Of a stretch of 64,000 bases of DNA, positions 1 to 15,084 are shown in pieces. Each line of letters begins with the position of its first letter. Positions within the stretch are counted from its first letter, which is position 1. This DNA is from Phyllobacterium myrsinacearum (GTDB lineage: Bacteria > Pseudomonadota > Alphaproteobacteria > Rhizobiales > Rhizobiaceae): the NCBI RefSeq assembly GCF_002980555.1, contig NZ_PVBT01000002.1, forward strand, positions 186,001 to 250,000, written 5' to 3'. The notes beneath the pieces were generated by a model. The model was not told the DNA's origin. It did not search any database and saw only the letters and a program-made list of their open reading frames with translations. A program made the position numbers and the translations under genes.

Positions 1-55
1 GCTGGGCAATCGCCTTGGCGATATCGGGCATGTCTTCCACGACAAGAATGCGCAA
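1..55 (-). CDS. Response regulator receiver domain, N-terminal fragment (runs off the left edge)
   Basis: Read leftwards from a TTG codon at 55-53, the frame gives LRILVVEDMPDIAKAIAQ and leaves the window. The RILVVED start followed by an exposed acidic pocket is the classic first strand and loop of a two-component receiver domain. A GGGGG stretch sits about seven bases before the TTG, and an in-frame stop lies a little further upstream, so TTG is the likely start. The gene diverges from the importer at 171. The output domain is outside the window, so the regulated process is unknown. Confidence 0.6.
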   Translation of the reverse strand, partial: MRILVVEDMPDIAKAIAQ

Positions 56-170
56 ATCGTGCCCCCGAAACGTGAGTCAGGTATGTGTCAGTTACCGCAA
101 GTACAGTCGAGGTGGGAGTTTTGTCAACGTTACGGCGTTGTGCAAAAGAGACGACGCATTGGGAGGAAGT

Positions 171-947: not shown

Positions 948-961
948 GATTGGAAGATTCG

Positions 962-1828
962 ATGACTGAAGTTCTCTACACACGTCCGGAGATTGTGCGC
1001 GGCGACGGCAAGAAGGATTTCCTGCAGGTCGAGAAGACGCTCTCCGCTTTCGAACGCATCTATCGCATCGGTGCGGTGCGAAAAGCTTTTATCCTGTTCG
1101 TTCTCGCTGCGGCCTGGGAGATTTACGGGCGCTGGCTTGGCAACCCGCTGCTGTTCCCGAGTTTTTCCGAGACGGTGACGGCTTTCGCTGCCAATATTGC
1201 TGACGGCACCATTCCGGCCAGAGCACTCGCATCCATCAAAACGCTGCTCATCGGCTATGGCATCGGCATCGTGCTGGCTGCGCTCTTGACCACCCTCGCC
1301 ATTGGATCGCGCATTGGTGCCGATCTGCTGGAAACACTGACCTCCATGTTCAATCCGCTCCCGGCCATTGCATTGCTGCCGCTGGCACTGATCTGGTTCG
1401 GTCTGGGGCAGGGGAGCGTGATCTTCGTGCTGGTGCACTCTGTGCTGTGGGCCATCGCCTTGAACACCCATGCCGGTTTCCGGTCCGTTTCCAACACGAT
1501 GCGGATGGTCGGCCTGAATTACGGCCTGCGCGGTCTCAAGCTCGTCCGCCATATCCTGATACCGGCTGCCTTTCCATCCATTCTGACGGGTTTGAAAGTC
1601 GGCTGGGCCTTTGCATGGCGCACGCTGATCGCCGCCGAACTGGTGTTCGGCGTATCGTCCGGTTCCGGCGGTCTTGGCTGGTTCATCTTCGAGAACCGCA
1701 ACCAGCTGGAAACCGCCAATGTCTTTGCAGGCCTGTTCACGGTTATCTTGATCGGCCTTGCCGTCGAGAACCTGATCTTTGCCACGATTGAAAAGAAAAC
1801 CATTCGCCGCTGGGGAATGCAGGCTTGA
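962..1828 (+). CDS. ABC transporter permease, SsuC/TauC family
   Basis: 288-residue inner-membrane permease (BPD_transp_1 fold). Hydrophobic segments recur through the protein, for example near residues 38-55 and 95-115. The EAA-type cytoplasmic loop is visible as NTMRMVGLNYGLRGLKLVRHILIP-like sequence in the middle of the protein. The ATG at 962 has GGAAG just upstream; a TTG at 944 would overlap the previous stop but has no ribosome site. It lies 14 bases after the ATPase gene and 43 bases before the binding-protein gene, so co-transcription is likely. Confidence 0.9.
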   Translation: MTEVLYTRPEIVRGDGKKDFLQVEKTLSAFERIYRIGAVRKAFILFVLAAAWEIYGRWLGNPLLFPSFSETVTAFAANIADGTIPARALASIKTLLIGYGIGIVLAALLTTLAIGSRIGADLLETLTSMFNPLPAIALLPLALIWFGLGQGSVIFVLVHSVLWAIALNTHAGFRSVSNTMRMVGLNYGLRGLKLVRHILIPAAFPSILTGLKVGWAFAWRTLIAAELVFGVSSGSGGLGWFIFENRNQLETANVFAGLFTVILIGLAVENLIFATIEKKTIRRWGMQA

Positions 1829-1871
1829 GTTTAAACCGCCGGGAACCGGTATGTATCAAGGGAGGACTACG

Positions 1872-2891
1872 ATGAAAATGATGAAGCAGCTCTGTGCCGC
1901 CGTGCTCGGCATTGGCCTTGGATTGGCAGGCGCAACGGGTGCTGCCCGCGCCGAAGTCAGCGAAGTGCGGATTTCCAAGGGATACGGCATTCTCTATCTG
2001 CCGCTGATCGTCATGGAAAACCAGAAGCTGATGGAAAAGCAGGCGGCAAAAGCCGGTCTTGGCGACGTCAAGGTGACATGGCTGATGCTGGATGGCGGCA
2101 ATGTCATCAACGATGCGATGATGGCCGGTTCGCTCGATTTTGCCGGAACGGGCGCGCCGGGCTTTGTCACCCTCTGGGCCAAGGCCAAGGGCATTCCGAA
2201 TGTCGAAGTTGTCGGCATCAGCGGTCTCAGCGCGACGTCGCTGTGGCTGAATTCGAACAATCCCGAGGTCAAGACGCTGAAAGATCTGACACCCAAGGAC
2301 AAAATTGCCCTGCCGGGAATCAAGACTTCGCTCTCGGCGGTTGTCCTGCAGATGATGGCGGCGCATGAATTCGGACGCGAGAACTATGCCAAGCTCGACC
2401 CGCTGACGGTCAGCCTGCCGCATCCGGAAGCCCTGGCTGCGGTAACAAGCGGCCAGACCGAGATTACGGCCCACTTCACCTCGCCGCCGTTTTCCTATCT
2501 TGAGTTGAAAGACCGGAAGATTCACCGGGTGGTCAATTCCGTTGATGTCATCGGCAATATCACGCTTGATGTGACCTTTGCGCCGAAGAAGTTCGTCGAT
2601 GCCAATCCAAAGACCACAGAAGCGTTCCTGGCAGCGCTGGATGAGGCTAATGCTTTCATTGCTGGCAACAAGCAAGCCGCCGCGGAGATTTTCGCCAAGA
2701 GTTCGAAGGTGAAAGTGTCCGTCGACGAGGTCCTCGAGATGCTGAACGACAAGGATTCGCAATTCTCGACGACGCCGAATGGTGTCATGCAGTTCGCCGA
2801 GTTCATGCATTTGGCCGGTACGATCAAGGTCAAGCCTGCAAGCTGGACCGACCTGTTCATTCCGCAGCTCCATGCGCGCAGCGGGAGTTAA
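1872..2891 (+). CDS. ABC transporter periplasmic substrate-binding protein, NMT1/SsuA-like
   Basis: 339 residues with a clear Sec signal peptide (KMMKQ positive end, hydrophobic LCAAVLGIGLGLAGATG core, cleavage expected after GAARA near residue 25). The body resembles NMT1/THI5/SsuA-type binding proteins: an early lobe around GYGILYLPLIVMENQ and a DGGNVINDAMMAGSLDFAGTGAP block like those that line the ligand pocket. ATG 1872 is preceded by GGAGGACTACG. It completes the operon and is followed by a strong terminator. Ligand unknown. Confidence 0.88.
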   Translation: MKMMKQLCAAVLGIGLGLAGATGAARAEVSEVRISKGYGILYLPLIVMENQKLMEKQAAKAGLGDVKVTWLMLDGGNVINDAMMAGSLDFAGTGAPGFVTLWAKAKGIPNVEVVGISGLSATSLWLNSNNPEVKTLKDLTPKDKIALPGIKTSLSAVVLQMMAAHEFGRENYAKLDPLTVSLPHPEALAAVTSGQTEITAHFTSPPFSYLELKDRKIHRVVNSVDVIGNITLDVTFAPKKFVDANPKTTEAFLAALDEANAFIAGNKQAAAEIFAKSSKVKVSVDEVLEMLNDKDSQFSTTPNGVMQFAEFMHLAGTIKVKPASWTDLFIPQLHARSGS

Positions 2892-2933
2892 GGCAGGGCT
2901 GCCTTTCACCGACCCGCCAAGTTGACCAACAAG

Positions 2934-2968
2934 AGCCGGTTGTTATCAGCGATAACGGCCGGCTTTTT
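2934..2968 (+). terminator. Rho-independent terminator of the importer operon
   Basis: AGCCGG-TT-GTTATC and GATAAC-GG-CCGGCT pair around an AGC loop, followed by five T residues. It lies 43 bases after the binding-protein stop codon. Confidence 0.85.
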
Positions 2969-3086
2969 GACGCCGCTGGTGGCGGAAACGTGATGACCGG
3001 CAGGATCTATGTTTTGGGTTTTGCTTGCCAGAATCGACCAGCCGGGGGATAAAGCAGCGACTTCACAAAGCGAAAGTATTGCGGCC

Positions 3087-4259
3087 ATGGTTGATGCGAC
3101 ACACGAACACGGCACGTCAGGCCAGCCGCTCAATGTCAGCTTCAACACTGAAGATGGTCAGGCCATGGTTGTCCTGGCCGGCTCCTGGGTTACACGCTAT
3201 GTCGGGCGTGTGAACGCGCAAATGCGCAAGATCGAGCACCGGAAGGATTTCTCCACCGCCGTCATCGATCTGTCCGGTGTCGACGCCTTGGATACGGCGG
3301 GTGCCTGGCTCGTCGACCGCATGCGCGTTGCGCTGGAAACCGCCGGCAAGCAGGTCGAGATACGGGGACTCAAACAGCATTGGGAAACGCTTTTTGATGC
3401 TGTCGGGAAAACCGCATCTGCTCAGGCTGATGCAAACCCGCCGCTGCACAAGCCGAATCTTGGAATTCAGATTCTCGACACAATTGGCCGGACAGTGGTC
3501 AATTTCGGCGATGATTTTATCAAATCCATGCATGTGCTGGGTGCGGTTGTCACCGGGTCCCAGATGCGGGGCGGCAAGGGAAGCCCGATCCGGTATCCGG
3601 CATTCTTCCACCAGATCGACCGGCTGGGTGTCGGGGCAATCCCGGTCGTGGTGCTGATTTCGTTCATCATGGGTGCCATTGTCGCGCAGCAGGGTGCCTA
3701 CATGCTGAGCACCTATGGCGCGGAAACTTACGCGGTGAATCTCGTCGGCGTGCTGGTCCTGCGCGAGACCGGCGTCCTGTTGACGGCGATCATGATCGCG
3801 GGCCGTTCGGGAAGCGCCATCACCGCGGAACTCGGGTCGATGAAAATGCGCGAGGAAGTCGACGCCCTGCACGTCATCGGTCTCAACCCGATCAGCGTTC
3901 TGGTGTTCCCCCGCCTGGTTGCGCTGAGCATTTCGTTGCCGCTTCTGACAATTATCGCGGATTTCGCCGGGCTTGCGGGCGGCGCCGTCGCCCTCTGGCT
4001 CTATTCGGACGTATCGCCCGGCATCTATGTCGCCAATCTGCGCGATGCCATCACGGTCCAGTATTTCCTCGCCGGCCTGATCAAGGCCCCTTTCATGGCC
4101 ATGATCATCGGTACCATTGCCGCGGTTGAAGGAATGAAGGTTGGCGGAAGCGCGGAGTCGCTGGGTCTGCGCGTGACAGCGTCGGTGGTCAAGTCGATCT
4201 TCATCGTCATCGTCCTCGATGGCGTCTTTGCCATCTTCTACGCGTCGATCAATTTCTGA
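3087..4259 (+). CDS. STAS-domain MlaE-family permease (phospholipid transport type)
   Basis: About 390 residues. The N-terminal ~100 residues form a STAS-like domain (STAVIDLSGVDALDTAGAWLVDRM). The rest is an MlaE/YrbE permease with family motifs IPVVVLISFIMGAIVAQQG, RSGSAITAELGSMKMREEVDAL and the closing membrane helices to the C-terminus. MlaE proteins move phospholipids between the membranes with an MlaF ATPase and an MlaD/MCE binding protein. Neither follows here: the next gene points the other way 11 bases later. An earlier ATG at 3009 is possible (it has GGCAGG upstream); 3087 avoids a hydrophobic stretch not typical of the family, but has a weak ribosome site. Confidence 0.85.
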   Translation: MVDATHEHGTSGQPLNVSFNTEDGQAMVVLAGSWVTRYVGRVNAQMRKIEHRKDFSTAVIDLSGVDALDTAGAWLVDRMRVALETAGKQVEIRGLKQHWETLFDAVGKTASAQADANPPLHKPNLGIQILDTIGRTVVNFGDDFIKSMHVLGAVVTGSQMRGGKGSPIRYPAFFHQIDRLGVGAIPVVVLISFIMGAIVAQQGAYMLSTYGAETYAVNLVGVLVLRETGVLLTAIMIAGRSGSAITAELGSMKMREEVDALHVIGLNPISVLVFPRLVALSISLPLLTIIADFAGLAGGAVALWLYSDVSPGIYVANLRDAITVQYFLAGLIKAPFMAMIIGTIAAVEGMKVGGSAESLGLRVTASVVKSIFIVIVLDGVFAIFYASINF

Positions 4260-4270
4260 GACCTGCCGGT

Positions 4271-5053
4271 TTACCTGCGGCTGATGATGAGCCGCAGGGA
4301 CCCTTCAAAGAAGGGTTGCTTGCGCAGGCTTCCGTACATGGCGTTCCAGACGCCCGTGTCAAGATCGTCACCCAGTCTGTCGACAAACCGCTCGGCGACG
4401 GACGGGTCGACAAAGCTCCAGGCTGAATTGGCCAGCCGCGCACCTTTTTCCAGCAGGCGTTCGGGGCGCCCGTAATAGGCTTCGCCAAAGCCGTCGATAC
4501 AGTTGAGCGGTATAGGGACAGGGATGATCTCGGCCCTGCCGCCAAGCCCGTCCCGGATCGACCGCATCGAGGGATAGCGCCGCGCTTCGACCGCAATCAT
4601 TTCCGGCGCGTATTCGGCAAGCCATGACCGGTGCAGTTCATCGGGATCACAGGACAGGATCAGGATGACGCCACGCGTCACCCGGCGCATTTCCGCCAGA
4701 CCAGCGGCAAGGTCGGGCCACTGGTGCACCGTGAAGGTTGCCATGCTCGCATCGAAGCTTTGATCTGGAAAGGGCAGGTTTTCGGCGACGCCGTCGACGG
4801 CAATGGGCAGATGAGGTGGCCGTTGCGCGCGCATGGATGCGGAGGGTTCAAGGGCCGTCACTTCCCGGTCGACGGGTTCATACGATCCTGCACCGGCACC
4901 GACATTGAGAACAGTCCGTGCATCTCCAAGGGCCGCGCGAATGAATTCCGCAATGTGCGGGTCCGGCTGGCGGTATTGTGTGTAGCCTGCGCCGATCACG
5001 CCGTAATTGGCATCGCCGGCACTGCCGTCTTTATGTCTGTTCAGCACGATCAT
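4271..5053 (-). CDS. Class I SAM-dependent methyltransferase
   Basis: 260 residues of the UbiE/Methyltransf_11 type. Motif I TVLNVGAGAGSYEP is at about 47-60, the acidic end of strand 2 is TALEPSASM, and the motif-II region LPFPDQSFDASMATFTVHQW is followed by LAEMRRVTRGVILIL. ATG 5053 is preceded by GAGGAGAC. Its substrate is unknown. It is convergent with the MlaE permease and divergent from the LysR gene at 5237, which may control it. Confidence 0.85.
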   Translation of the reverse strand: MIVLNRHKDGSAGDANYGVIGAGYTQYRQPDPHIAEFIRAALGDARTVLNVGAGAGSYEPVDREVTALEPSASMRAQRPPHLPIAVDGVAENLPFPDQSFDASMATFTVHQWPDLAAGLAEMRRVTRGVILILSCDPDELHRSWLAEYAPEMIAVEARRYPSMRSIRDGLGGRAEIIPVPIPLNCIDGFGEAYYGRPERLLEKGARLANSAWSFVDPSVAERFVDRLGDDLDTGVWNAMYGSLRKQPFFEGSLRLIISRR

Positions 5054-5210
5054 GTCTCCTCGATCAGGGGATTGCAGTTGCAGATTTAGTCACATGGCGC
5101 CCGACGGGCCCGGCGGCGGTTAGTCCCGAGGTCGCGTATCCATATTCAGAGAATCTGCAGGTTTGTGTGGAGAAAACACTGTTGAAGCCTTGCTGAAAAG
5201 CGATATGATT

Positions 5211-5225
5211 GAACAAGTATTGTTC
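5211..5225. promoter_or_regulatory. Palindrome GAACAA-GTA-TTGTTC, candidate LysR operator
   Basis: Perfect six-base arms with a three-base centre, ending 11 bases before the LysR start codon in the shared divergent region. LysR proteins usually bind dyads in such regions and repress themselves. Assignment is by position only. Confidence 0.45.
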
Positions 5226-5236
5226 GGAAAACGCAC

Positions 5237-6133
5237 ATGGCTCGTAAAATTCCCTCCCTGACGGCGCTGCGTGCGTTCGAGGCCGCCGGTCGGCATGGGC
5301 GCATGACCCTGGCCGCCGACGAACTCAATGTGACGCACAGTGCGATCAGCCGTCAGGTTCAGCATCTGGAGGATGTGTTGGGCGTTCCGCTGTTCGAGGG
5401 GCCGAAAAATGCTCTTCGTCTCACCGACGCCGGAACGCGGCTGCTGTCGGGACTTGTCCCGGCTTTCGACCAGATCGACCTTGCCGTGCGGTTGGTGGCG
5501 GATACAGAAGACGGGCCGCTTGACGTCTCTTGTCCCGGCACATTCACGATGCGGTGGCTCATCCCGCGCCTGTACCGGTTTCAGGCGGCGCATCCTGATA
5601 TCGACGTTCGTCTGACCTCCTCAAGCAAAGCGGTTGATTTCTCCCGTGACGGGTTTGATGTTGCAATCCGTGTTGGATCGGGTCCGTGGCCGGAAGCGGC
5701 AGATGTCATTCCGCTTTTCAGTGAGCAGATCGGCCCGGTTCTGGCATCATCGCTCGCACCCATGGCGTCAGCAAGTTTTGCCGGCATTGCGCTGCTGCAT
5801 TCGAAAACGCGTCTGCATGCGTGGCCGGACTGGTGCGCGCGGTCAGGTATAGCCATAGGCCATGCACCGGGCAGGGAATATGAGCATTTCTATTTCATGC
5901 TGGAAGCGGCGATGGGCGGCCTTGGTGTCTGCATTGCGCCCTGGCCGTTCGTTGCGGACGATATAAGAGCCGGCCGTCTCGTCGCGCCGCATCGCTTCAT
6001 CGGCAGCGGGCAGGATTATGTCGCGTTGCGCCGGGCGCGCCGTCACCGCAAATCGTCGCTCTTCTGTGCGTGGCTTGCCATGGAGGCGCAGGCCTTCACC
6101 GCCGCCTCGGAAGCGGTGCTGTTGCAGAGGTGA
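5237..6133 (+). CDS. LysR-family transcriptional regulator, GcvA-like
   Basis: 298 residues. The N-terminal winged HTH (PSLTALRAFEAAGRHGRMTLAADELNVTHSAISRQVQHLEDVLG, residues ~6-50) has the GcvA-subfamily wording THSAISRQV. A periplasmic-binding-like effector domain follows (LDVSCPGTFTMRWLIPRLYRF; FDVAIRVGSG). Divergent from the methyltransferase gene with a palindrome between them, so that gene is its most likely target. Effector unknown. Confidence 0.9.
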   Translation: MARKIPSLTALRAFEAAGRHGRMTLAADELNVTHSAISRQVQHLEDVLGVPLFEGPKNALRLTDAGTRLLSGLVPAFDQIDLAVRLVADTEDGPLDVSCPGTFTMRWLIPRLYRFQAAHPDIDVRLTSSSKAVDFSRDGFDVAIRVGSGPWPEAADVIPLFSEQIGPVLASSLAPMASASFAGIALLHSKTRLHAWPDWCARSGIAIGHAPGREYEHFYFMLEAAMGGLGVCIAPWPFVADDIRAGRLVAPHRFIGSGQDYVALRRARRHRKSSLFCAWLAMEAQAFTAASEAVLLQR

Positions 6134-6226
6134 GATTCGCGCTGTATCTCTGTCCGGATAGCCGTTCTCCCATGCGAGGCGGCGGATTGCAGCCACGATG
6201 GTTGGCACGAAAAGGATAGGCATCCG

Positions 6227-6724
6227 ATGTTTGCGGCAAAGACGATGGATCACACTGACAAGACCGAGTTCTATCGCGAACTCTGCGATCAGTTGAGCGG
6301 CCTTCTCGCTGGTGAAAACGATGCCATTGCCAATGCTGCAAATACCTCGGCCCTGATCTTCCAGATGGTGCCCGATCTCAATTGGGCCGGATTCTATTTT
6401 CTCTATTCCGATGACGAACTTGTTGTCGGTCCCTTTCAGGGCAAGCCAGCCTGTGTGCGTATCGCTGTCGGCAATGGTGTCTGCGGAACAGCGGTTGTGC
6501 AGGGAACCTCGATTCTCGTCGAGGATGTCCACGCCTTTCCCGGACATATCGCCTGCGATGCCGCATCCCGTTCGGAGCTTGTCGTGCCGCTTTTCCATGA
6601 TGGACGCATCCTGGGTGTTCTTGATCTGGACAGTCCGATACCCGGCCGGTTTGACAGCATCGATCAGTTCGGCATGGAAAAACTCGCCGCAATCTATGTG
6701 GCCGCGTGCAATTGGGACGATTGA
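6227..6724 (+). CDS. msrC: Free methionine-(R)-sulfoxide reductase (GAF-domain fRMsr)
   Basis: 165-residue single GAF domain. It reduces free Met-R-sulfoxide in the cytoplasm. Three cysteines at residues 76, 86 and 110 have the same spacing (10 and 24) as the catalytic/resolving cysteines of E. coli fRMsr, in GKPACVRIAVGNGVCGTAV and FPGHIACDAASRSELVVP. The conserved NWAGFYF and LGVLDLDSP motifs are present. The start could also be ATG 6245. It stands alone between two regulators. Confidence 0.93.
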   Translation: MFAAKTMDHTDKTEFYRELCDQLSGLLAGENDAIANAANTSALIFQMVPDLNWAGFYFLYSDDELVVGPFQGKPACVRIAVGNGVCGTAVVQGTSILVEDVHAFPGHIACDAASRSELVVPLFHDGRILGVLDLDSPIPGRFDSIDQFGMEKLAAIYVAACNWDD

Positions 6725-6836
6725 GCGATAATTTTTCGCATCGGCCAACATCTTGTTAAAATTCCATATTTTTCGATTTTTGGATCGGCTGTGACCGGGA
6801 ATCCCACAGGTTCTTGCGGCCGGTTCTGAATCCCGG

Positions 6837-6865
6837 TTGACAAGAACCGTGAAGTGCAGTTGTCT
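6837..6865 (+). promoter_or_regulatory. Possible promoter of the LacI operon
   Basis: TTGACA at 6837-6842 is a perfect -35 match. A weak -10-like TTGTCT lies 17 bases later and touches the operator array, so a bound repressor would block it. Transcription start is not provable here. Confidence 0.4.
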
Positions 6866-6910
6866 TGTAAAGCGATTTACTAAACCGCTTTACAAATGGG
6901 GAAAGCGCTT
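6865..6910. promoter_or_regulatory. Triple LacI-type operator array
   Basis: Three overlapping or adjacent LacI-like dyads: GTAAAGCGATTTAC (6867-6880), CTAAACCGCTTTAC (6880-6893) and GAAAGCGCTT (6901-6910). The outer edges of the first two also form a perfect ten-base inverted repeat, TTGTAAAGCG (6865-6874) and CGCTTTACAA (6886-6895). The array ends at the proposed GTG start of the LacI gene, which predicts tight autorepression of the whole operon. Confidence 0.7.
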
Positions 6911-7933
6911 GTGATCAAGAAGACAACGCCCAGTCTGAAAGACGTCGCTGCTGCTGCCGGTGTTTCCGTGACCACCGTTTCCCGGCTGGTCAATGGCAGT
7001 CTTGATCTGCCCTACCACACCAAGAAGCGCATCGAGGATGCGATCAAATCGCTGAACTACATTCCCAACCCGCATGCGCGGCGTTTGAGCATGGGCCGCT
7101 CGGACACTATCGGTCTGGTCGTTCCCGAAATTGCCAATCCATTCTTTTCAACCCTGGTTGCTGCCGTCGAGCAGGCAGCGGACGAGCGCAAGCTGGCGGT
7201 CTCGCTGCATGCGACACTCAACCGGGCGGGGCGTGAAATCGAGTATCTGCAACTGATCGAGCGCAATCATGTTGACGGGCTCATCTTCATCACCAACCAC
7301 CCGGATGACGGTGCGCTTGCGGGCCTTATCAACCGCTCGGGCAAGGTCATCATCGTCGATGAAGACGTTCCGGGTTCGAAAGCGCCAAAACTGTTCTGCG
7401 ACAATGATCACGGCGGTTATCTCGCCGGTCTGCACCTTGCGCAACAGGGGCACAGCCATGTTCTGTTCATCGGCGGCGACGAGCGCATGATCAGTGCGCG
7501 CCGCCGTTTCGATGGCCTGATGCGCGCGCTGCGCGGACAGCATGGCGATATGGCGAAGGTTGACCGGTACGCCGGTGAATACACCATCGATTATGGACGG
7601 CAGGCCGCCATCCGCTATCTGGAAGAACAGCACGCGGCAACCGCCATTTTTGCCAGCTCCGACGAAATTGCCATCGGCCTGATTGAGGTTTTCAAAGATC
7701 GCAATGTGTCGGTTCCCGGCGATGTCTCGATCATCGGTTTCGACGATGTCGGGCCGCTGCATCTCTTTGCGCCGCCGCTGACCGTCATTCGTCAGCCGGT
7801 CCGCCAGCTCGGACGGCGGGCGCTCGAACTGCTTCTGGAAACAAACTGGCAGGAGTGGAAGCCTTCCGCTTCGGAAGAGCTGCTGCCGGTCGAAATCGTC
7901 GTGCGGAACTCCGTTGCCCCGCCGGCGAAATAA
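6911..7933 (+). CDS. LacI-family repressor of the downstream catabolic operon
   Basis: 340 residues. The HTH is SLKDVAAAAGVSVTTVSRLVNGS with the hinge IPNPHARRLSMGRSDTIGLV, followed by a type I periplasmic-binding-like sensor (VVPEIANPFFS; IFASSDEIAIGLIEVF; SIIGFDDV). The GTG at 6911 is chosen because GGGGAAAG lies five bases upstream; the ATG at 6896 has no ribosome site and sits inside the operator. First gene of a nine-gene same-strand series with small gaps, so it probably regulates itself and the cluster. Effector is likely the imported compound or its phosphate. Confidence 0.9.
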   Translation: MIKKTTPSLKDVAAAAGVSVTTVSRLVNGSLDLPYHTKKRIEDAIKSLNYIPNPHARRLSMGRSDTIGLVVPEIANPFFSTLVAAVEQAADERKLAVSLHATLNRAGREIEYLQLIERNHVDGLIFITNHPDDGALAGLINRSGKVIIVDEDVPGSKAPKLFCDNDHGGYLAGLHLAQQGHSHVLFIGGDERMISARRRFDGLMRALRGQHGDMAKVDRYAGEYTIDYGRQAAIRYLEEQHAATAIFASSDEIAIGLIEVFKDRNVSVPGDVSIIGFDDVGPLHLFAPPLTVIRQPVRQLGRRALELLLETNWQEWKPSASEELLPVEIVVRNSVAPPAK

Positions 7934-7972
7934 CAAGATGGAACGGTAAGAAAACCAACAGAGGATGAGAAC

Positions 7973-8926
7973 ATGACTTTGAATTTGAGCAGGAGAACAT
8001 TGATTGCATTGGCTGGCTTCACGGCATTGAGCTGCGCCAGCGCATCGACAGCAATCGCACAGGAGAAGAAGACGATCGCGCTGGTGCAGATCAACCAGCA
8101 GGCGCTTTTCTTCAACCAGATGAACCAGGGCGCGCAGAAGGCCGCCGACGCCGCCGGCGTCAAGCTGGTTATTTTCAATTCCAACAATGAACCAACGGCG
8201 CAGAACAGTGCCGTTGAGACCTATATTCAGGAAAAGGTATCGGGTCTTGCGGTCGTCGCCATTGACGTCAACGGCCTGATGCCCGCCGTCAAGCAGGCCG
8301 CCGACGCGGGTATTCCGGTTGTCGCCATCGACGCGATCCTTCCCGAAGGTCCGCAGAAAGCCCAGATCGGCGTCGATAACGCCAAGGCGGGTGCCGATAT
8401 GGGCAAGTTCTTCCTTGATTACGTCAAAGCCAATATGGGCGGCAAGGCCAAGATCGGTGTTGTCGGCGCGCTGAACTCCTATATTCAGAATGTCCGGCAG
8501 GAAGGCTTTGAAAAGACGATCAAGGGTGCTGACGGCGTTGTGATTGCCGGTGTCGTCGACGGCCAGAATGTGCAGGACAATGCGCTTGCGGCAGCCGAGA
8601 ACCTGATTACCGGCAATCCGGACCTGACAGCGATCTATGCAACCGGCGAGCCTGCCCTGATGGGCGCCATCGCCGCCGTGCAAAGCCAGGGCAAGCAGGG
8701 CACCATCAAAGTATTCGGCTGGGATCTGACTGCGGAAGCCATTGCCGGCATCGATGCCGGATTTGTCGCTGCGGTTATCCAGCAGGACCCGTCAGCAATG
8801 GGCGCCGCCGCCGTGAATGCCTTGCAGAAGGTTGCGGCTGGCCAGACCGTCGAGAAAAACATCGCCGTTCCCGTCACCATCGTCACCAAGGCGAATGTTG
8901 ATCCATACAGGGCCGTGTTCAAATGA
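7973..8926 (+). CDS. Ribose/sugar-type ABC periplasmic binding protein (RbsB-like)
   Basis: 317 residues with a Sec signal (NLSRRTLIALAGFTALSCASASTAIAQ, cleavage near residue 29). The body is a class I sugar-binding protein: TIALVQINQQALFFNQMNQGAQKAADAAGVKLVIF, then SGLAVVAIDVNGLMPAVKQAADAGIPVVAID, typical of RbsB/ALS-binding proteins. ATG 7973 follows GAGGATGAGAAC. It delivers the ligand to the permease encoded two genes on. Ligand unknown; a free or glycosidic sugar is suggested by the family and the PfkB kinase downstream. Confidence 0.9.
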   Translation: MTLNLSRRTLIALAGFTALSCASASTAIAQEKKTIALVQINQQALFFNQMNQGAQKAADAAGVKLVIFNSNNEPTAQNSAVETYIQEKVSGLAVVAIDVNGLMPAVKQAADAGIPVVAIDAILPEGPQKAQIGVDNAKAGADMGKFFLDYVKANMGGKAKIGVVGALNSYIQNVRQEGFEKTIKGADGVVIAGVVDGQNVQDNALAAAENLITGNPDLTAIYATGEPALMGAIAAVQSQGKQGTIKVFGWDLTAEAIAGIDAGFVAAVIQQDPSAMGAAAVNALQKVAAGQTVEKNIAVPVTIVTKANVDPYRAVFK

Positions 8927-9738
8927 TCGAGGTCGGTCAGCAAAGATCTGCTGCCACCGGTTCCGGAGGGGGTATTCCCTCCGGACACATCGGCAACGCA
9001 CATTCCACCCCGCGTATTTCCCTGCGCGGCATACGCAAATCATTCGGCTCGCACCAGGCATTGCGTGGAGTTGATCTCGATATTTATCCCGGCGAATGCC
9101 TCGGCCTTGTCGGTGACAATGCCGCGGGCAAGTCGACGCTGACAAAGATCATTTCCGGCACCTACATTCCGGACGGCGGCACCATGTCCATCGAGGGTGA
9201 GGACATTCATCTCACCGGCCCTGGCGACGCGCGCAGCCGGCATATCGAAATGGTCTTCCAGGATCTGAGCCTTTGCGACGAGATCGATGTGGTCGGCAAT
9301 CTCTTTCTTGGCCGCGAGCTGAGCAAGGGCATGTTCCTTGACAGCAAGGCCATGCTGGCCGAAGCGCGCAAAATGCTGGACGCGCTGGAAATCCGTATTC
9401 CCAAATTGACCAGCAAGGTTGCCCATCTCTCCGGCGGCCAGCGGCAGGCCATCGCGATTGCCCGTGCAGCGTCGTTCAAGCCGAACGTCCTGATCATGGA
9501 CGAGCCGACATCGGCGCTCGCCGTGGCCGAAGTTGAAGCGGTTCTCTCCCTGATCAATCGCGTCAAGGCCAATGGCGTCTCGGTCATCCTCATCACGCAC
9601 CGCCTCCAGGATCTTTTTCGCGTCTGCGACCGGATTGCCGTGATGTATGAGGGCACGAAGGTTGCAGAACGCCAGATCGGGGGCACCAATCTTGAGGACC
9701 TTGTCAAACTGATCGTTGGCGAAGGAGCGAAGCAATGA
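8923..9738 (+). CDS. ABC ATP-binding protein, single-domain RbsA-like (FrcA/half-size type)
   Basis: 271 residues, one nucleotide-binding domain rather than the two of RbsA, as in fructose importer FrcA. Walker A GDNAAGKST at 64-72, signature LSGGQRQA, Walker B VLIMDEPTSALA, H-loop LITHRL. The ATG overlaps the previous stop by four bases (ATGA). The first ~30 residues are poorly structured and not part of the ABC fold. Confidence 0.92.
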   Translation: MIEVGQQRSAATGSGGGIPSGHIGNAHSTPRISLRGIRKSFGSHQALRGVDLDIYPGECLGLVGDNAAGKSTLTKIISGTYIPDGGTMSIEGEDIHLTGPGDARSRHIEMVFQDLSLCDEIDVVGNLFLGRELSKGMFLDSKAMLAEARKMLDALEIRIPKLTSKVAHLSGGQRQAIAIARAASFKPNVLIMDEPTSALAVAEVEAVLSLINRVKANGVSVILITHRLQDLFRVCDRIAVMYEGTKVAERQIGGTNLEDLVKLIVGEGAKQ

Positions 9739-10739
9739 CCGTCTATACCGAACGCGGTCACGGATCGCGCCTTGCTGACTTTTTCGGCGAGCACGCGCAG
9801 GTTCTGTCGATCGCCGTGTTTTTCATCGCCTGCATGGTGTTTTTCTCGATCGGCAGCGATACGTTCCTGACCCTTGGCAATATTCTCAATATCGTGCGGC
9901 AGGCGGCTCCGCTGCTGATTGTTGCGATCACCATGACCTTCGTCATCATCACCGGCGGCATCGATTTGTCGGTGGGCTCGCAAGTCGCCCTTATCAATGC
10001 GGTTGCGGCTGTCGTCATGGCGATGGGATATCCCTGGCCATTGGTCGTGGTTGCAATGATTGTGCTCGGCGGCGGCCTTGGTTTCGTTCAGGGCTGGTTC
10101 ATCGCCTATCAGGGCATTCCAGCCTTCATCGTTACACTTGCCGGTCTTTCCATCCTGCGGGGATTTGCGCTCTACCTGACGCAGGGCTATTCGATCCCCA
10201 TTCAGGATGCGCCGGGCTTCTTTGCGCTGGGTCGCGGCGTGATTGGGGGTGTCCCCGTTCCGGCCATCATCGCCGCCGTCGTTGCCGTTCTGGGCTACGT
10301 GGCGATAACATCGACCAAATATGGCCGTCAGGTTGTGGCGGTCGGTTCCAACGCGGAAGCCGCCCGCCGGGTCGGCATGCCTGCCAAGTGGATCATCGCT
10401 TCGGTCTATCTCATTTCCGGCGTGGCCTGCGCCGTGGCCGGTTTGCTGATCGCGGCACGACTGGGGTCCGGATCGTCCAATGCGGCTGTCGGTTTCGAAC
10501 TGCAGGTGATCGCGGCTGTCGTTCTCGGCGGCACATCGCTGATGGGCGGGCGCGGCACCATCCTTGGAACGGTTCTCGGCACGCTGACCATCGCGGTGAT
10601 CGGCAACGGGCTGATCCTGATGCACATCTCGCCATTCTTCACGCAGATCGTCACCGGTGCGATCATCCTGATCGCCATCTGGCTGAACACACGGATATTC
10701 ACGGCAAACTTCCGCTTTGGCAGCGGCAGGAAGAGGTGA
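9735..10739 (+). CDS. ABC permease, RbsC-like
   Basis: 334-residue membrane protein of the branched-chain/ribose permease family. Family blocks: TFVIITGGIDLSVGSQVALINAVAAVVMA, GIPAFIVTLAGLSILRGFAL, GRQVVAVGSNAEAARRVGMP and VIAAVVLGGTSLMGGRGTILGTVLG. Overlaps the ATPase gene by four bases. With the two preceding genes it forms a complete importer. Confidence 0.93.
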   Translation: MTVYTERGHGSRLADFFGEHAQVLSIAVFFIACMVFFSIGSDTFLTLGNILNIVRQAAPLLIVAITMTFVIITGGIDLSVGSQVALINAVAAVVMAMGYPWPLVVVAMIVLGGGLGFVQGWFIAYQGIPAFIVTLAGLSILRGFALYLTQGYSIPIQDAPGFFALGRGVIGGVPVPAIIAAVVAVLGYVAITSTKYGRQVVAVGSNAEAARRVGMPAKWIIASVYLISGVACAVAGLLIAARLGSGSSNAAVGFELQVIAAVVLGGTSLMGGRGTILGTVLGTLTIAVIGNGLILMHISPFFTQIVTGAIILIAIWLNTRIFTANFRFGSGRKR

Positions 10740-10744
10740 GCGCC

Positions 10745-11812
10745 GTGAGCCACGATCTGTCAGAAGCTCATATCCGTTCCGGCAAGGTGATGACGGTCAA
10801 TGGCCCCATCGCAGCGGAAGCGCTCGGCATCACGTTGATGCATGAGCACATCCTCAACGATTGCCGCTGCTGGTGGCATGCGCCGAAGACGCCGGAACGG
10901 CAGTACCTCGCCGGTGGCTTCGTCTGCATGGAAATATTGGGCGAACTCAAGCAGGACCCTTTCGTCAACAAGCACAACATCACGCTTGATGACGAACCGC
11001 TGGCGATTTCAGAACTGCGCGCCTTTGCCAATGCCGGCGGTCAGACCGTGGTGGAGCCGACATGCCGGGGCATAGGCCGCAATCCGCTGGCTCTCCGGCG
11101 TATTGCCAAAGCCGCGGGTCTCAATGTGGTGATGGGGGCCGGCTATTATCTTGGCTCCTCTCATCCGGCCGAAGTCGCTGATATGACCGTTGGCGATATC
11201 GCCAACGAGATCGTGCGGGAGGCGGTGGAGGGTGTCGATGGCACCGACGTCAAAATCGGGCTCATCGGCGAAATCGGCGTTTCGTCGGATTTCACTGCAG
11301 AAGAGGAGAAGTCGTTGCGCGGTGCAGCTCAGGCGCAGGTGCGGACGGGTCTTCCCCTCATGGTGCATTTGCCTGGCTGGTTCCGGCTCGGTCACCGCGT
11401 GCTCGACGTCGTGGCGCAGGAGGGGGCCGATATAAGGCATACGGTTCTTTGCCACATGAACCCATCCCATGACGATTTCAGCTATCAGAGTGAACTCGCC
11501 GCCCGCGGTGCGTTCATTGAATATGACATGATCGGCATGGACTTCTTCTATGCGGATCAGCAGGTGCAATGCCCAAGCGATGAAGAAGCCGCCCGCGCCA
11601 TCGTACGCCTGGCCGAGGCTGGTTATCTCGACCGGGTTCTCCTGTCGCACGACGTGTTTCTGAAGATGATGCTGACCCGCTATGGCGGTAATGGCTATGC
11701 CTATGTGCTGCGCCATTTCCTGCCGCGCCTCAAGCGGCATGGCCTCGACGAAACGGCCCTCGACCAGATGATGCGGGTCAATCCGCGCGCTGTTTTTCAG
11801 GCTGGTGCCTGA
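10745..11812 (+). CDS. Phosphotriesterase-family metal-dependent hydrolase
   Basis: 355 residues, amidohydrolase-superfamily TIM barrel. Metal ligands are visible: HxH in ITLMHEHILNDC (H33, H35), a carboxylate in IGLIGEIGVS at the position often held by a bridging carbamylated lysine, histidines in LPLMVHLPG and VLCHMNPSHDD, and an aspartate in RVLLSHDVFLK. GTG 10745 is chosen with GAGG eight bases upstream; GTG 10736 would overlap the permease stop. Family members hydrolyse lactones, phosphoesters or N-acyl bonds; the substrate here is unknown. Confidence 0.85.
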   Translation: MSHDLSEAHIRSGKVMTVNGPIAAEALGITLMHEHILNDCRCWWHAPKTPERQYLAGGFVCMEILGELKQDPFVNKHNITLDDEPLAISELRAFANAGGQTVVEPTCRGIGRNPLALRRIAKAAGLNVVMGAGYYLGSSHPAEVADMTVGDIANEIVREAVEGVDGTDVKIGLIGEIGVSSDFTAEEEKSLRGAAQAQVRTGLPLMVHLPGWFRLGHRVLDVVAQEGADIRHTVLCHMNPSHDDFSYQSELAARGAFIEYDMIGMDFFYADQQVQCPSDEEAARAIVRLAEAGYLDRVLLSHDVFLKMMLTRYGGNGYAYVLRHFLPRLKRHGLDETALDQMMRVNPRAVFQAGA

Positions 11813-11854
11813 CGCTAACCCCTATTTTGACATTTATGAAAGTTTGGTGATCCC

Positions 11855-12619
11855 ATGACAAAGAAAGTCCTTCTCGTCGGTGAAAGCTGGGTCAGTTCGG
11901 CCACGCACTACAAAGGTTTCGATCAGTTCGGCAGTGTAACGTTTCACCTGGGCGCAGAGCCGCTGGTCAAGGCTCTCGCGGGCAGTGCATTCGAGCTGAC
12001 CTATATGACGGCGCATGAAGCGGTCGATAAATTCCCCTATGAGATGGCAGGGCTGGATGTCTATGACGTCATCATCCTGTCGGATATCGGCGCAAACTCC
12101 CTGCTGCTGCCGCCAGAGGTGTGGCTGCATTCGCGCACGGTCCCCAACCGGTTGAAGCTGATCAAGGCCTGGGTGGAAAAGGGCGGGGCGCTGCTGATGG
12201 TCGGCGGGTACTTCTCGTTCCAGGGCATCGACGGCAAGGCGCGCTGGCGGCGGACGCCCGTGGAAGACGTATTGCCAGTGACCTGCCTTCCCTATGATGA
12301 CCGCGTTGAAATTCCTGAAGGCACGACGGCGAAGATCCTCATGCCGGACCATCCCGTCATGGCCGGTCTTGGCGGCGAATGGCCGGTGCTTCTCGGGGTC
12401 AATGAGGTTGAAATTCGTGACGGAGCGGATGTCGAAGTGGTTGCGACGCTGCCGGACGATCAGGGCGGCCATCCGCTGCTGGTTCTCGGGCGCTATGGCA
12501 AGGGCAACACGGCCGTCTGGACCTCCGATATCGGGCCGCATTGGTTGTCCCCGGCCTTCTGCGAATGGGAAGGCTACGGCAAACTCTGGAAAAATATTCT
12601 GGCCTGGCTGACGCGCTGA
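11855..12619 (+). CDS. GATase1-like protein (PF07090-type, 'glutamine amidotransferase-like')
   Basis: 254 residues with a Rossmann-like class I amidotransferase fold: KVLLVGESWVSSATHYKG start, YDVIILSDIGANSLLL, WVEKGGALLMVGGYFSFQG, and a C-terminal NTAVWTSDIGPHWLS. The nucleophile elbow that holds cysteine in true glutamine amidotransferases reads VGGYFSF here, so glutaminase activity is doubtful. Cofactor-free hydrolase or sugar-binding roles are possible. The family name is from general likeness; function unknown. Confidence 0.75.
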   Translation: MTKKVLLVGESWVSSATHYKGFDQFGSVTFHLGAEPLVKALAGSAFELTYMTAHEAVDKFPYEMAGLDVYDVIILSDIGANSLLLPPEVWLHSRTVPNRLKLIKAWVEKGGALLMVGGYFSFQGIDGKARWRRTPVEDVLPVTCLPYDDRVEIPEGTTAKILMPDHPVMAGLGGEWPVLLGVNEVEIRDGADVEVVATLPDDQGGHPLLVLGRYGKGNTAVWTSDIGPHWLSPAFCEWEGYGKLWKNILAWLTR

Positions 12620-12671
12620 TTTTTTTCGAAGCGCGCAAGCCGCTATCTCAAAACCTATGAAAGGGAACGAC

Positions 12672-13514
12672 ATGCAGGAAATATCGGATCGTAGCTCCAA
12701 CGCGGTGCAGGAGATATTCGGCACCAACAAGGTGCTCATTGGAATGATCCATTGTCCGGCATTCCCCGGGGCCCCCCGCTACAAGGGGGCTGACATGGAT
12801 GCGATCTATGATGCCTGCATGCGGGACGCCGAGGCCTGCGTGGAAGGAGGATTGCACGGACTGGTCATTGAAAACCATGGCGATATTCCCTTTTGCAAGC
12901 CCGATGATATCGGACCCGAAACAACCGGATTCATGTCCGTTGTCACGGATCGCATTGCCCGGGCCATCGGCATCCCGCTCGGGATCAATGTGCTTGCCAA
13001 TGCGCCCATTCCGGCTTTTGCCATTGCCATGGCCGGCGGTGCCAAGTTCATTCGGGTCAATCAGTGGGCCAATGCCTATGTGGCGAATGAAGGCTTCATG
13101 GAGGGCAGGGCGGCTGAGGCGATGCGCTACCGGTCGATGCTGCGCGCCGAGCACATCAAGGTCTTTGCCGACAGCCACGTCAAGCACGGCAGCCACGCCA
13201 TCGTTGCAGACCGGACGATCGAAGAATTGACGCGTGATCTTGCGTTCTTTGATGCCGATGGTGTCATCGCCACGGGGCAGCGCACGGGCAACGTCGCAAC
13301 AATTGAAGAGATCGAGGAAATCGGCTCGGCAACGCATCTGCCGCTTCTGGTCGGATCGGGTGTCAACAGCGACAACATCGTCGAAATACTCAAGCGGACC
13401 AACGGCGTCATCGTGGCATCCTCGCTGAAGCAGGGCGGTGTCTGGTGGAACCCGGTGGACGTTGAGCGGGTCAAGGCGTTCCGTGCCGCCGCAGAACCGG
13501 CGCTGGAGCGCTGA
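12672..13514 (+). CDS. BtpA/SgcQ-family TIM-barrel protein
   Basis: 280 residues. Diagnostic wording: IGMIHCPAFPGAPRYKG near the start, GLHGLVIENHGDIPF, GINVLANAPIPAFAIAMAGGAKFIRVNQW, IKVFADSHVKHGSHA and LPLLVGSGVNSDNIVEIL. The family is named after cyanobacterial BtpA (photosystem I accumulation) and E. coli SgcQ (an uncharacterised sugar operon); its chemistry is not established, though the glycine-rich end looks like a phosphate-binding site. ATG 12672 has AGGGA upstream; ATG 12657 is the alternative. Confidence 0.88.
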   Translation: MQEISDRSSNAVQEIFGTNKVLIGMIHCPAFPGAPRYKGADMDAIYDACMRDAEACVEGGLHGLVIENHGDIPFCKPDDIGPETTGFMSVVTDRIARAIGIPLGINVLANAPIPAFAIAMAGGAKFIRVNQWANAYVANEGFMEGRAAEAMRYRSMLRAEHIKVFADSHVKHGSHAIVADRTIEELTRDLAFFDADGVIATGQRTGNVATIEEIEEIGSATHLPLLVGSGVNSDNIVEILKRTNGVIVASSLKQGGVWWNPVDVERVKAFRAAAEPALER

Positions 13515-13518
13515 GGGC

Positions 13519-14166
13519 ATGGAAAGCGAAAGCCTCTCCGACCGTATCCTGCGGGAAAATGCGGCGGTCCTGCAGACGATGCTGGACCACCGTTTCGTCA
13601 GGGACATAAAGCACGACGCGCTGAGCAAGGACGCCTTCGATCGCTACCTCGTCTATGAAGGCGCTTTTGTCGACACGGCGATTTCGATCTTTGCCTATGC
13701 AGCGGCGACGGCGCAAACCATGGAGCAGAAGCGCTGGCTCATCGCGGTGCTGGATGCGCTCGCCAATGAGCAGATTGTCTATTTCGAGCGCACCTTCGCG
13801 CGCCGGGCCATCGATCCCGCCGCATTCGACGTTACGATTCCAGCGGTTGAGGCCTTCCGGTCGGGGATGCTCTGCATTGCTGCCGAGGGCGGGTTTCTCG
13901 ACATCATTGCCGCGATGTTTGCGGCGGAATGGATGTACTGGACCTGGTCAAAGGAGGCTTCGATGCATCGCATCAGTGATCCGCTTCTCAAGGAGTGGGT
14001 TGATCTGCATGTAAGCCAGGGGTTTGCCGAACAGGCATTGTGGCTGAAGCATCAGCTTGATCTGGCGGGGCCAGGTCTTTCCGAGCAGGGACGTGTCCGG
14101 CTCAGCAGTATATTCGGCCATGCCATGCAGCTCGAAATCGATTTTCATGACGCGCCATATCTCTAA
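13519..14166 (+). CDS. TenA/thiaminase II-family protein lacking the usual active-site cysteine
   Basis: 215-residue all-helical TenA/PqqC-like protein. TenA hydrolyses aminopyrimidines in thiamine salvage. The C-terminal family motif is kept (LEIDFHDAPY, E206), but the segment that carries the nucleophilic cysteine in TenA_C enzymes reads AAMFAAEWMYWTW, with glutamate E137 near the site as expected for the TenA_E branch. It begins five bases after the BtpA stop with GAGGG between. Its place in a sugar-import operon, away from thiamine genes, suggests another pyrimidine-like or N-glycoside substrate. Confidence 0.8.
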   Translation: MESESLSDRILRENAAVLQTMLDHRFVRDIKHDALSKDAFDRYLVYEGAFVDTAISIFAYAAATAQTMEQKRWLIAVLDALANEQIVYFERTFARRAIDPAAFDVTIPAVEAFRSGMLCIAAEGGFLDIIAAMFAAEWMYWTWSKEASMHRISDPLLKEWVDLHVSQGFAEQALWLKHQLDLAGPGLSEQGRVRLSSIFGHAMQLEIDFHDAPYL

Positions 14167-14184
14167 CCTTCAAAAGGTCTGCCA

Positions 14185-15084
14185 ATGCGCGCCTATGTAA
14201 TCGGCAATGTCACCATCGATGAAACAATAATCGTGGATTCACTGCCGGCGTCCGGGGCCTCTATCCTCGGCGAAGTTGGAGCGCATGATCTGGGCGGCAA
14301 GGGAACGAACCAAGCTGTCGTCATGGCCCGGTGCGGGCTGCCAACGACATTGGTCGCGCCGGTCGGAAATGATGCGCGCGCGGCCGTGATCCGCCAGCGC
14401 TTGCAGGATGAGCCGCTCACGACGGAGCTGGTCGAACTGGATGGAAAGTCGAGTGATACCTCCATCATCTTCCGGTTGCCCGACGGCGAAAATGCGATTG
14501 TCACCACAACCGAGTCCGCACAGAACCTCAGCTCATCTGCCGTTGCCGCGAAACTCTCCGCCGCTCAACCCGGCGATCTGGCGATCCTGCAGGGAAACCT
14601 GTCGCATCAGGCGACGCGTGAAATCCTCAGGCAGGCCAGGGGACTTCAGATGGTGACTGCATTCAACCCGTCGCCTTTGCGCCCCTATTTCGCGGATCTC
14701 TGGGCACTGGTGGACATCGTATTTCTCAACCAGGGTGAAGCCGCGGCTTTGACCGGAGCCACGGGGAATGCTGCAGCGAGCCATCTTCTGGAACGCGGTC
14801 TCCGGGATGTCGTGCTGACACTGGGGCGCGAAGGCGCAATTCTTGCGAACCAGCGGGAGACCATCGCCGTTCCGGCCCATCCCGCCATCGTGGTTGACAC
14901 GACCGGGGCAGGAGATACGTTCATGTCCGTGGCTCTTGCATCATCGGCCCGGCGCAACTGCCGTCTGGACAGGCTGGCAATCGAGCATGCGGTGCGGGCC
15001 GCCGCCATAACCGTATCCAGACGGGGGACCCAATCGGCTTTTCCGACATCTCCGGAGCTGGAGGCCTTGCTGGCACTGCCTTGA
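14185..15084 (+). CDS. PfkB/ribokinase-family carbohydrate kinase
   Basis: 299 residues. N-terminal GNVTIDETIIVDSLPASGAS and GGKGTNQAVVMARCG are the sugar-contacting ribokinase signature; C-terminal VVDTTGAGDTF (238-246) has the anion-hole GAGD with catalytic D244. It likely phosphorylates a sugar or nucleoside taken up by the importer. Last gene of the LacI operon, 18 bases after the TenA-like gene. Confidence 0.92.
   Translation: MRAYVIGNVTIDETIIVDSLPASGASILGEVGAHDLGGKGTNQAVVMARCGLPTTLVAPVGNDARAAVIRQRLQDEPLTTELVELDGKSSDTSIIFRLPDGENAIVTTTESAQNLSSSAVAAKLSAAQPGDLAILQGNLSHQATREILRQARGLQMVTAFNPSPLRPYFADLWALVDIVFLNQGEAAALTGATGNAAASHLLERGLRDVVLTLGREGAILANQRETIAVPAHPAIVVDTTGAGDTFMSVALASSARRNCRLDRLAIEHAVRAAAITVSRRGTQSAFPTSPELEALLALP

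Follow-up and report, generated by a model that had tools for sequence, protein, structure and literature searches.

Introduction

Described systems related to the operon considered here include a Salmonella gene cluster and the URC pathway. The Salmonella cluster STM3547-STM3550 has been published; its kinase RikA (STM3547) is reported to phosphorylate ribose, and a pathway not yet known is suspected by its authors too (PMC13432705). For the URC pathway, three papers equate DUF1688 with urg3 (PMC2174524), name URC4 as the ortholog of urg3 (PMC3869809) and have URC4 convert ribosylurea to urea (PMC7530994). Here we describe a nine-gene operon in a 64,000-nucleotide stretch of the Phyllobacterium myrsinacearum genome (assembly GCF_002980555.1, contig NZ_PVBT01000002.1, positions 186,001 to 250,000 of the forward strand), hereafter the window. 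It encodes a LacI-family regulator, a ribose-type importer, a PTE-family hydrolase, a GATase1-like protein of family PF07090 (GAT1), a BtpA/SgcQ protein, a TenA-like protein and a PfkB kinase. The operon belongs to a known kind, the LacI-regulated catabolic operon with an ABC importer; for its enzyme set there is no pathway in the literature searched. That search, with most subscription journals outside its reach, returned no paper on an operon of this type, no ligand and no pathway for the enzymes. Our favoured reading, held tentatively, is that the operon is repressed by LacI and serves to import and dismantle a small amide or ureide in N-glycosyl form, with ribose the most likely sugar, that resembles a damaged, modified or ring-opened nucleoside.

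The gene set is conserved behind a dedicated operator

Employing an alignment of ten PTE proteins as the query against a species-genome collection, we kept the best 80 of 433 relatives and tallied genes in each locus by tblastn within 7.5 kb of the PTE gene. LacI, binding protein, ATPase, permease, PTE, BtpA and PfkB occurred together in 80/80 of these loci, which were chosen by PTE similarity and are nearly all from Rhizobiales. GAT1 was present in 78 of them (absent from L156 and from L168 of Kaistia soli) and TenA in 70. The closest named PTE relatives were those of Phyllobacterium calauticae (99% identity) and P. myrsinacearum (98%). Because the arrangement recurs in every PTE-anchored locus, though BtpA (PF03437) is present in just 58/249 genomes of the order, it is far beyond chance. 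Such genes occur in soil bacteria, in many that nodulate roots and in some that cause galls.

Directly 5' of LacI lies a double palindrome, GTAAAnCGnTTTAC then TAAAnCGnTTTAC. The best 14-base site was perfect (12/12 fixed bases) upstream of LacI in 77/80 loci, with 11/12 in two and 9/12 in the K. soli locus; among random control stretches from the same loci, only 4/400 held a perfect site. Because the exact first-half site occurs once in the 5.44-Mb window genome, at window 6867-6880, LacI probably controls this operon alone. In four gammaproteobacterial clusters, the operator palindrome GTAAACCGGTTTAC precedes the ATPase gene. Scanning the loci also revealed further sites in L067 and, 125 bases past TenA, in L192. 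A promoter scan yielded 4 sites where shuffled sequence yields 3.5, and no site overlaps the operator.

A first-pass annotation, made by a model from the sequence alone, had proposed a nine-gene same-strand operon of these families, acting as one catabolic unit, and had staked the proposal on the genes being conserved together. The families were confirmed by the open reading frames (ORFs) and Pfam/NCBIfam, the set held in 80/80 loci, and with the operator this supports a single conserved, separately regulated unit. The search for extra partner enzymes that it had proposed turned up a recurrent amide hydrolase, either an M20 amidase of the hydantoinase/carbamoylase family or one of another kind; the M20 gene is found in 46/80 loci and is absent from the window operon.

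All nine ORFs lie on the plus strand between 6896 and 15084 (6865-15084 with the operator) and have zero internal stops (Table 1). Their families are LacI, Peripla_BP_4, ABC ATPase, BPD_transp_2, PTE, GATase1_like, BtpA, TENA_THI-4 and PfkB. With the preferred starts, the binding-protein gene overlaps the ATPase gene, and the ATPase gene the permease gene, by 4 bases each; the remaining gaps are 4-52 bases. LacI probably starts at GTG 6911 rather than at the listed ATG 6896, because the conserved operator occupies 6865-6895 and so reaches that ATG. The probable start of PTE is GTG 10745 (355 aa; compare the 1080-bp gene RL_RS26945), and that of BtpA is ATG 12672 (280 aa, a length common among relatives), not the listed ATG 12657.

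Table 1. Features of the operon, in window coordinates; scores are in bits, with model cut-offs where given
Feature	Position	Strand	Remarks
Tandem LacI operator TTGTAAAGCGATTTACTAAACCGCTTTACAA	6865..6895	.	Two palindromes, CG centres 13 bp apart
LacI-family regulator	6911..7933	+	PF00356/PF13377; RbsR model 233.8 vs cut-off 382
CUT2-type periplasmic binding protein	7973..8926	+	PF13407 177.7; RbsB model 121.2 vs cut-off 337
Single-domain ABC ATPase, 271 aa	8923..9738	+	PF00005
CUT2-type permease	9735..10739	+	PF02653; ribose permease model 202.4 vs cut-off 398
PTE-family hydrolase, binuclear-metal type	10745..11812	+	PF02126 221.6; core from ATG 10790
GATase1_like (GAT1), Cys-less, predicted ThuA-like fold	11855..12619	+	PF07090 425.6
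BtpA/SgcQ protein, predicted TIM barrel	12672..13514	+	PF03437 240.7; TIGR00259 225.3 vs cut-off 153.4
TenA-like protein without active-site Cys	13519..14166	+	PF03070 52.3; TIGR04306 47.6 vs cut-off 130
PfkB kinase, ribokinase type	14185..15084	+	PfkB 147.6; TIGR02152 193.6 vs cut-off 299.65

A second draw was anchored on PF07090 and covered 249 genomes of the order and 349 of the phylum (overlapping sets). Besides the window's own, it kept 48 loci above 200 bits, weaker partial matches to long proteins being dropped. A PTE gene was present in 22 of the 48. These 22 included GAT1 and permease genes throughout, binding protein and ATPase in 21 each, PfkB in 17, BtpA in 15, M20 carbamoylase in 10, LacI in 6, TenA in 4 and DUF1688 in 1. 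One or more of the PTE, M20 and CN-hydrolase genes were found in 32/48 loci, and 13/48 had none of PTE, PfkB, BtpA, M20 or CN-hydrolase within 7.5 kb. PF07090 is rare in two other orders of the phylum (E 1e-20), with 6/247 and 2/200 genomes, one of the latter two partial.

Importer and kinase differ from those for ribose

We compared the pockets of 107 binding proteins (window included), all of them CUT2 family members of the operon type, with that of the E. coli ribose-binding protein at its presumed ribose-contact residues. F15, F16, D89, N105 (106/107), R141, D215 and Q235 are retained. S103V, F164G and N190G are found in 107/107, N13A in 106, R90A in 102 and N64V in 99. Since several of these changes run from large to small residues, they suggest a larger or different ligand than ribose. 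The best PDB match of the binding protein is 5hsg (410 bits), which we take to be a Klebsiella protein in the apo state.

A canonical ribokinase is encoded at a separate locus of the window genome (352.3 bits, TIGR02152), beside ribose-type importer genes. The PfkB of the operon is distinct from it and closest in PDB to 3i3y/3ikh; it scored 39.4 with the fructoselysine 6-kinase model, against a cut-off of 247. A plain ribose (rbs) operon was rejected on the kinase and RbsB scores (Table 1), the replaced ribose contacts and the separate ribokinase locus. The transporter pRL90085 (PMC3333776), to judge by its number, presumably lies elsewhere on pRL9.

Four enzymes beyond the ribose set

The PTE protein matched PDB 3k2g with 570 bits, a solved structure from a subgroup for which we know of no native substrate. 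Against other PTE-family proteins, it scored 215 bits with Pmi1525, 212 with PTER and 135 with Php, and about 113 and below with lactonase-type PTEs. Its metal ligands H18, H20, E161, H193, H222 and D288 (counted from ATG 10790) match the PTER set, which PMC11374699 and PMC13311154 give as H26, H28, E169, H201, H230 and D298, with R204, R233 and H300 as substrate residues. In the alignment, the latter three correspond to G196, P225 and F290 in the window protein, and these are also found in the Escherichia albertii enzyme. A PTER-type N-acyl-beta-amino-acid hydrolase was rejected because the substrate residues are not kept.

The model of GAT1 (pLDDT 94.0) had STM3548 and STM1381 as its nearest structures, then a planctomycete GATase1-like protein and ThuA-like proteins and, lower, GH42 domains. 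No Cys was found among the positions conserved in at least 98% of 131 sequences; the conserved polar residues include E10, H18, D77, R99, E137, D225 and H229. A class I glutamine amidotransferase was rejected, there being no conserved nucleophile-elbow cysteine and a ThuA-like fold.

For BtpA, the AlphaFold2 model (pLDDT 80.7, weak in the loops) is consistent with a TIM barrel of the HisA/HisF/TrpF type. In Foldseek, HisF/HisA were best and TrpF came within the first 20 (E 1e-9 to 5e-8 across the three). Ranked by Z, MJ1099 with phosphoribosyl pyrophosphate (PRPP) came first (20.4) with other phosphate-binding barrels close behind, and a hexulose-phosphate synthase, KDPGal aldolase and DHPS stood as high as or higher than HisF/HisA/TrpF; these lists consist of generic TIM barrels, and a family missing there is not thereby excluded. 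The term BtpA is absent from the main text of a paper on a halophile nucleoside pathway (PMC9700705).

In the TenA-like protein, Ala136 occupies the position of the active-site Cys, and Glu137 and Glu206 are conserved. Classical thiaminase II was rejected on this replacement and on the TIGR04306 score; with the Cys missing, its chemistry is not implied. Two better TenA proteins are encoded elsewhere in the window genome.

Related neighbourhoods carry different importers and hydrolases

Neighbourhood genes were clustered by BLAST, with Pfam/NCBIfam annotation of one representative per cluster. The arrangement of the window is called type A. Type B, in ten loci, consists of a cupin-HTH regulator, importer, PTE, GAT1, PfkB, BtpA and M20 carbamoylase; one variant is without M20 (L102) and another without PfkB and BtpA (L098). 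In type C (four loci), GAT1 is followed by an ATPase, a binding protein, two permeases and an ArgE/DapE deacylase, and LacI adjoins GAT1 in 3/4. Type D, in three loci, joins GAT1 to a CN-hydrolase and an SBP_bac_1 importer. The M20 representative scored 389.2 with the 'hydantoinase/carbamoylase' model TIGR01879 (cut-off 204), and the deacylase representative 242 (cut-off 217.6). For the CN_hydrolase representatives, the best NCBIfam names were nitrilase and N-carbamoylputrescine amidase, both below cut-off.

Some loci combine types. A second, type C-like GAT1 adjoins type A genes in four loci (L109, L163, L167 and L169), and in L168 the type C importer and deacylase are present without GAT1. 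In that K. soli locus (33-6000), a second BtpA (47%), the type C importer and the ArgE/DapE deacylase lie directly 5' of the type A operon. Pantoea dispersa has parts of types A and C in one locus, with TenA adjoining the second importer and the ArgE/DapE deacylase. On a Klebsiella plasmid, GAT1 and a CN-hydrolase stand opposite an NMT1/THI5-like importer, whose binding protein had a sulfonate-type model as its best NCBIfam match, below cut-off. Roseomonas combines LacI-GAT1-BtpA-PfkB with an importer of the dipeptide type. A PF07090 gene (38%) of pTiChry5 (L193, 8004-15584) lies between trb genes and an operon for hydantoinase A/B, a SIS protein and fructoselysine 6-kinase.

One locus, L090 (10439-12512), has DUF1688 (URC4 family) 10 bases after PfkB, with BtpA, TenA and M20 absent. 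It is the sole such case seen among the 60/249 genomes of the order that have DUF1688; in the window genome, DUF1688 gave 0 matches.

The actinobacterial PF07090 neighbourhoods come from four Rhodococcus plasmids, each with GAT1-LacI-PfkB. In two, the company includes PRPP synthetase, a HAD phosphatase, a luciferase-like monooxygenase and nicotinate phosphoribosyltransferase. These are R. rhodochrous pNit (L189) and R. pyridinivorans pA (L205), which at about 3000-14800 also carry a flavin reductase, an amidohydrolase and an aldehyde dehydrogenase; the set looks like one for catabolism of an N-heterocycle via a ribosyl or phosphoribosyl handle. The third plasmid has PRPP synthetase, a nucleoside hydrolase and pentose phosphate genes, and the fourth other sugar-phosphate genes nearby; in L206 and L195, GAT1-LacI-PfkB thus has sugar-phosphate genes in its vicinity.

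A further sample of 20 stretches of the order, with BtpA called in 19 and representatives annotated, contained several that keep sugar kinases. Some of these have FGGY together with an M42 peptidase; in others, PfkB is accompanied by importers of the ribose type and by an M20-like or amidase gene. One such amidase adjoins a 51%-identical BtpA relative. In six stretches (L220-L223, L226 and L229), a BtpA group about 30% identical lies beside genes that cluster with the FGGY kinase and M42 peptidase annotated in L220; we take this group to resemble the E. coli sgc set minus its phosphotransferase system (PTS). The association of BtpA with kinases may extend to archaea, because BtpA of a Haloferax larsenii plasmid (L242, 5998-7768) adjoins a convergent carbohydrate kinase gene.

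Candidate ligands

Of the whole set, GAT1 with PfkB is what recurs most readily in other settings, as in Roseomonas LacI-GAT1-BtpA-PfkB and in Escherichia/Salmonella PfkB-GAT1-DMT-PTE. The kinase and the barrel indicate a sugar that ends as a phosphate, and the hydrolases indicate amide, ureide or amine bonds; the M20 carbamoylase-family and other amide hydrolase partners point to a ureide or amide in particular. Ribosyl company is provided by DUF1688 after PfkB in L090 and by the Rhodococcus sets, which tie GAT1 and PfkB to PRPP and, in two cases, to nicotinate phosphoribosyltransferase. What all these clues have in common, put most simply, is nitrogen linked to a sugar that is probably ribose.

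We propose the following scheme, in which both ligand and step order are inferred. The binding protein, ATPase and permease would import the riboside, and PfkB would phosphorylate the sugar, acting on the riboside while it is intact or on ribose once freed. On the nitrogen side, PTE may hydrolyse a bond of amide, ureide or lactone-like type, and the TenA-like protein and, where present, the M20 carbamoylase could trim its product. BtpA would act on a phosphosugar intermediate, and BtpA and/or GAT1 would break or rearrange the sugar-nitrogen link. The resulting ribose 5-phosphate would feed the pentose phosphate pathway, and what is left of the nitrogen side would serve as a nitrogen source. 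GAT1 and PfkB, often with BtpA, would form a portable core, with importers and aglycone hydrolases swapped according to substrate.

Our confidence in this scheme is limited, because its ribosyl clues are strongest in relatives rather than in the window: DUF1688 stands beside PfkB in one cluster only, and the Rhodococcus loci are without PTE, BtpA and TenA. Of the first-pass interpretation, the conserved regulated unit stands. A ligand other than plain ribose is probable, given the separate ribokinase-importer locus, the importer and kinase scores under the ribose cut-offs and the altered pocket; the genes found alongside are best accounted for by an N-glycoside. Two parts did not survive: GAT1 is probably not an amidotransferase, and BtpA and TenA are not a fixed pair, TenA being absent in 10/80 close loci and in 18/22 PTE loci of the PF07090 draw.

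Alternatively, the operon might handle a sugar alone, an unusual pentose or a sugar lactone or ester, with PTE as lactonase or esterase, PfkB as kinase, BtpA as aldolase or epimerase, and TenA and GAT1 as auxiliaries. Binding protein, permease, LacI and PfkB are indeed nearest to ribose models, PTE-family phospho-furanose lactonases exist (that model matches weakly, 60.9 vs cut-off 630), and other BtpA genes lie beside FGGY pentulokinase-type kinases and M42 peptidases. However, the window PTE is nearer to Pmi1525, PTER and Php than to lactonase-type PTEs, and the repeated amide/ureide hydrolases, TenA in 70/80 loci, DUF1688 and the Rhodococcus company are left unexplained. We consider this alternative unlikely.

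We are equally doubtful of a sugar-amino acid conjugate, in which case these enzymes would cleave a ligand of Amadori, opine or glycosylamine type (a sugar joined to an amino acid or to the lactam of one). The dipeptide-type importer in Roseomonas, the pTiChry5 relative of GAT1 with hydantoinase A/B, SIS and fructoselysine 6-kinase in its vicinity, the ArgE/DapE and amidase partners, and the occurrence in root-nodule and gall bacteria are consistent with it. But the pTiChry5 protein is only 38% identical, a LysR gene on the opposite strand lies between its gene and the operon mentioned, the window operon is without a SIS deglycase, and its kinase is ribokinase-like, far below the fructoselysine 6-kinase cut-off.

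In the YlmB-TenA route, aminopyrimidines are salvaged by a deacylase and TenA. A similar salvage of a glycosylated or degraded thiamin pyrimidine by the TenA-like and deacylase enzymes, suggested by the Pantoea TenA beside a second importer with its deacylase and by the Klebsiella GAT1-nitrilase pair opposite an NMT1/THI5-like binding protein, is very improbable: TenA is without the catalytic Cys, well below the thiaminase II cut-off, dispensed with in 10/80 loci and outscored by two proteins elsewhere in the genome, the operon has no thiamin kinase or phosphatase, and the Klebsiella protein scores best with a sulfonate-type model.

To return to the N-glycosyl reading, a broader version of it is speculative and, in our view, rather unlikely. 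GAT1, BtpA and PfkB would be a portable core for dismantling N-ribosyl compounds, in which PF07090 would cleave sugar-nitrogen links, a role so far unrecognised, and the BtpA barrel would handle phosphoribosyl groups. Bacteria would attach various importers and amide/ureide hydrolases to it in order to live on modified nucleosides in the rhizosphere (e.g. dihydrouridine or ribosylureas, released when RNA is turned over or pyrimidines are damaged), and some actinobacteria would reuse the core to recycle the ribose handle placed on N-heterocycles for ring opening.

PF07090, BtpA/SgcQ and the Cys-less TenA, families with no settled function, share one operon, importer and operator with this PTE subgroup. 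Identification of a single ligand would give leads on all these orphan families and on the Salmonella RikA cluster; if it were a modified nucleoside or ribosyl ureide, plant-associated bacteria would have, in this operon, a route of nucleoside catabolism that is new.

Comparison with known systems

With the rbs operon, the window operon shares a LacI regulator, a CUT2 importer and a ribokinase-type kinase; it differs in its single-domain ATPase, in having all parts under the rbs cut-offs, in four extra enzymes and in the separate ribokinase-importer locus. Hydantoinase/carbamoylase and dihydropyrimidinase/beta-ureidopropionase pairs likewise combine an amidohydrolase-type enzyme with an M20 carbamoylase-family gene, as in 46/80 relatives; here, the hydrolase belongs to the PTE family rather than the dihydropyrimidinase family, a sugar kinase and importer are present, and M20 is absent in the window. 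E. coli sgc has a PTS importer and no PTE or GATase1-like gene. The BtpA/SgcQ family is common to both, and a sugar kinase with M42 partners is found in other BtpA loci, whose BtpA group is only about 30% identical.

The URC pathway (URC1-URC6) likewise has nitrogen-containing pieces removed from a ribosyl group as its principle, and DUF1688/URC4 replaces BtpA/TenA in L090. In contrast, the window operon has neither URC1 nor a phosphoribosyltransferase, and the pathway proper was rejected because URC4/DUF1688 gave no match in the window genome.

The Salmonella RikA cluster differs in having a DMT transporter, against the CUT2 ABC importer of the window, and is without BtpA, TenA and LacI. It shares the joint presence of PfkB, PF07090 and PTE-family genes. 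In Escherichia albertii, which carries a Salmonella-like PfkB-GAT1-DMT-PTE set, the identities to the window proteins are 27% for PfkB, 45% for GAT1 and 39% for PTE, and the PTE has the same G196, P225 and F290.

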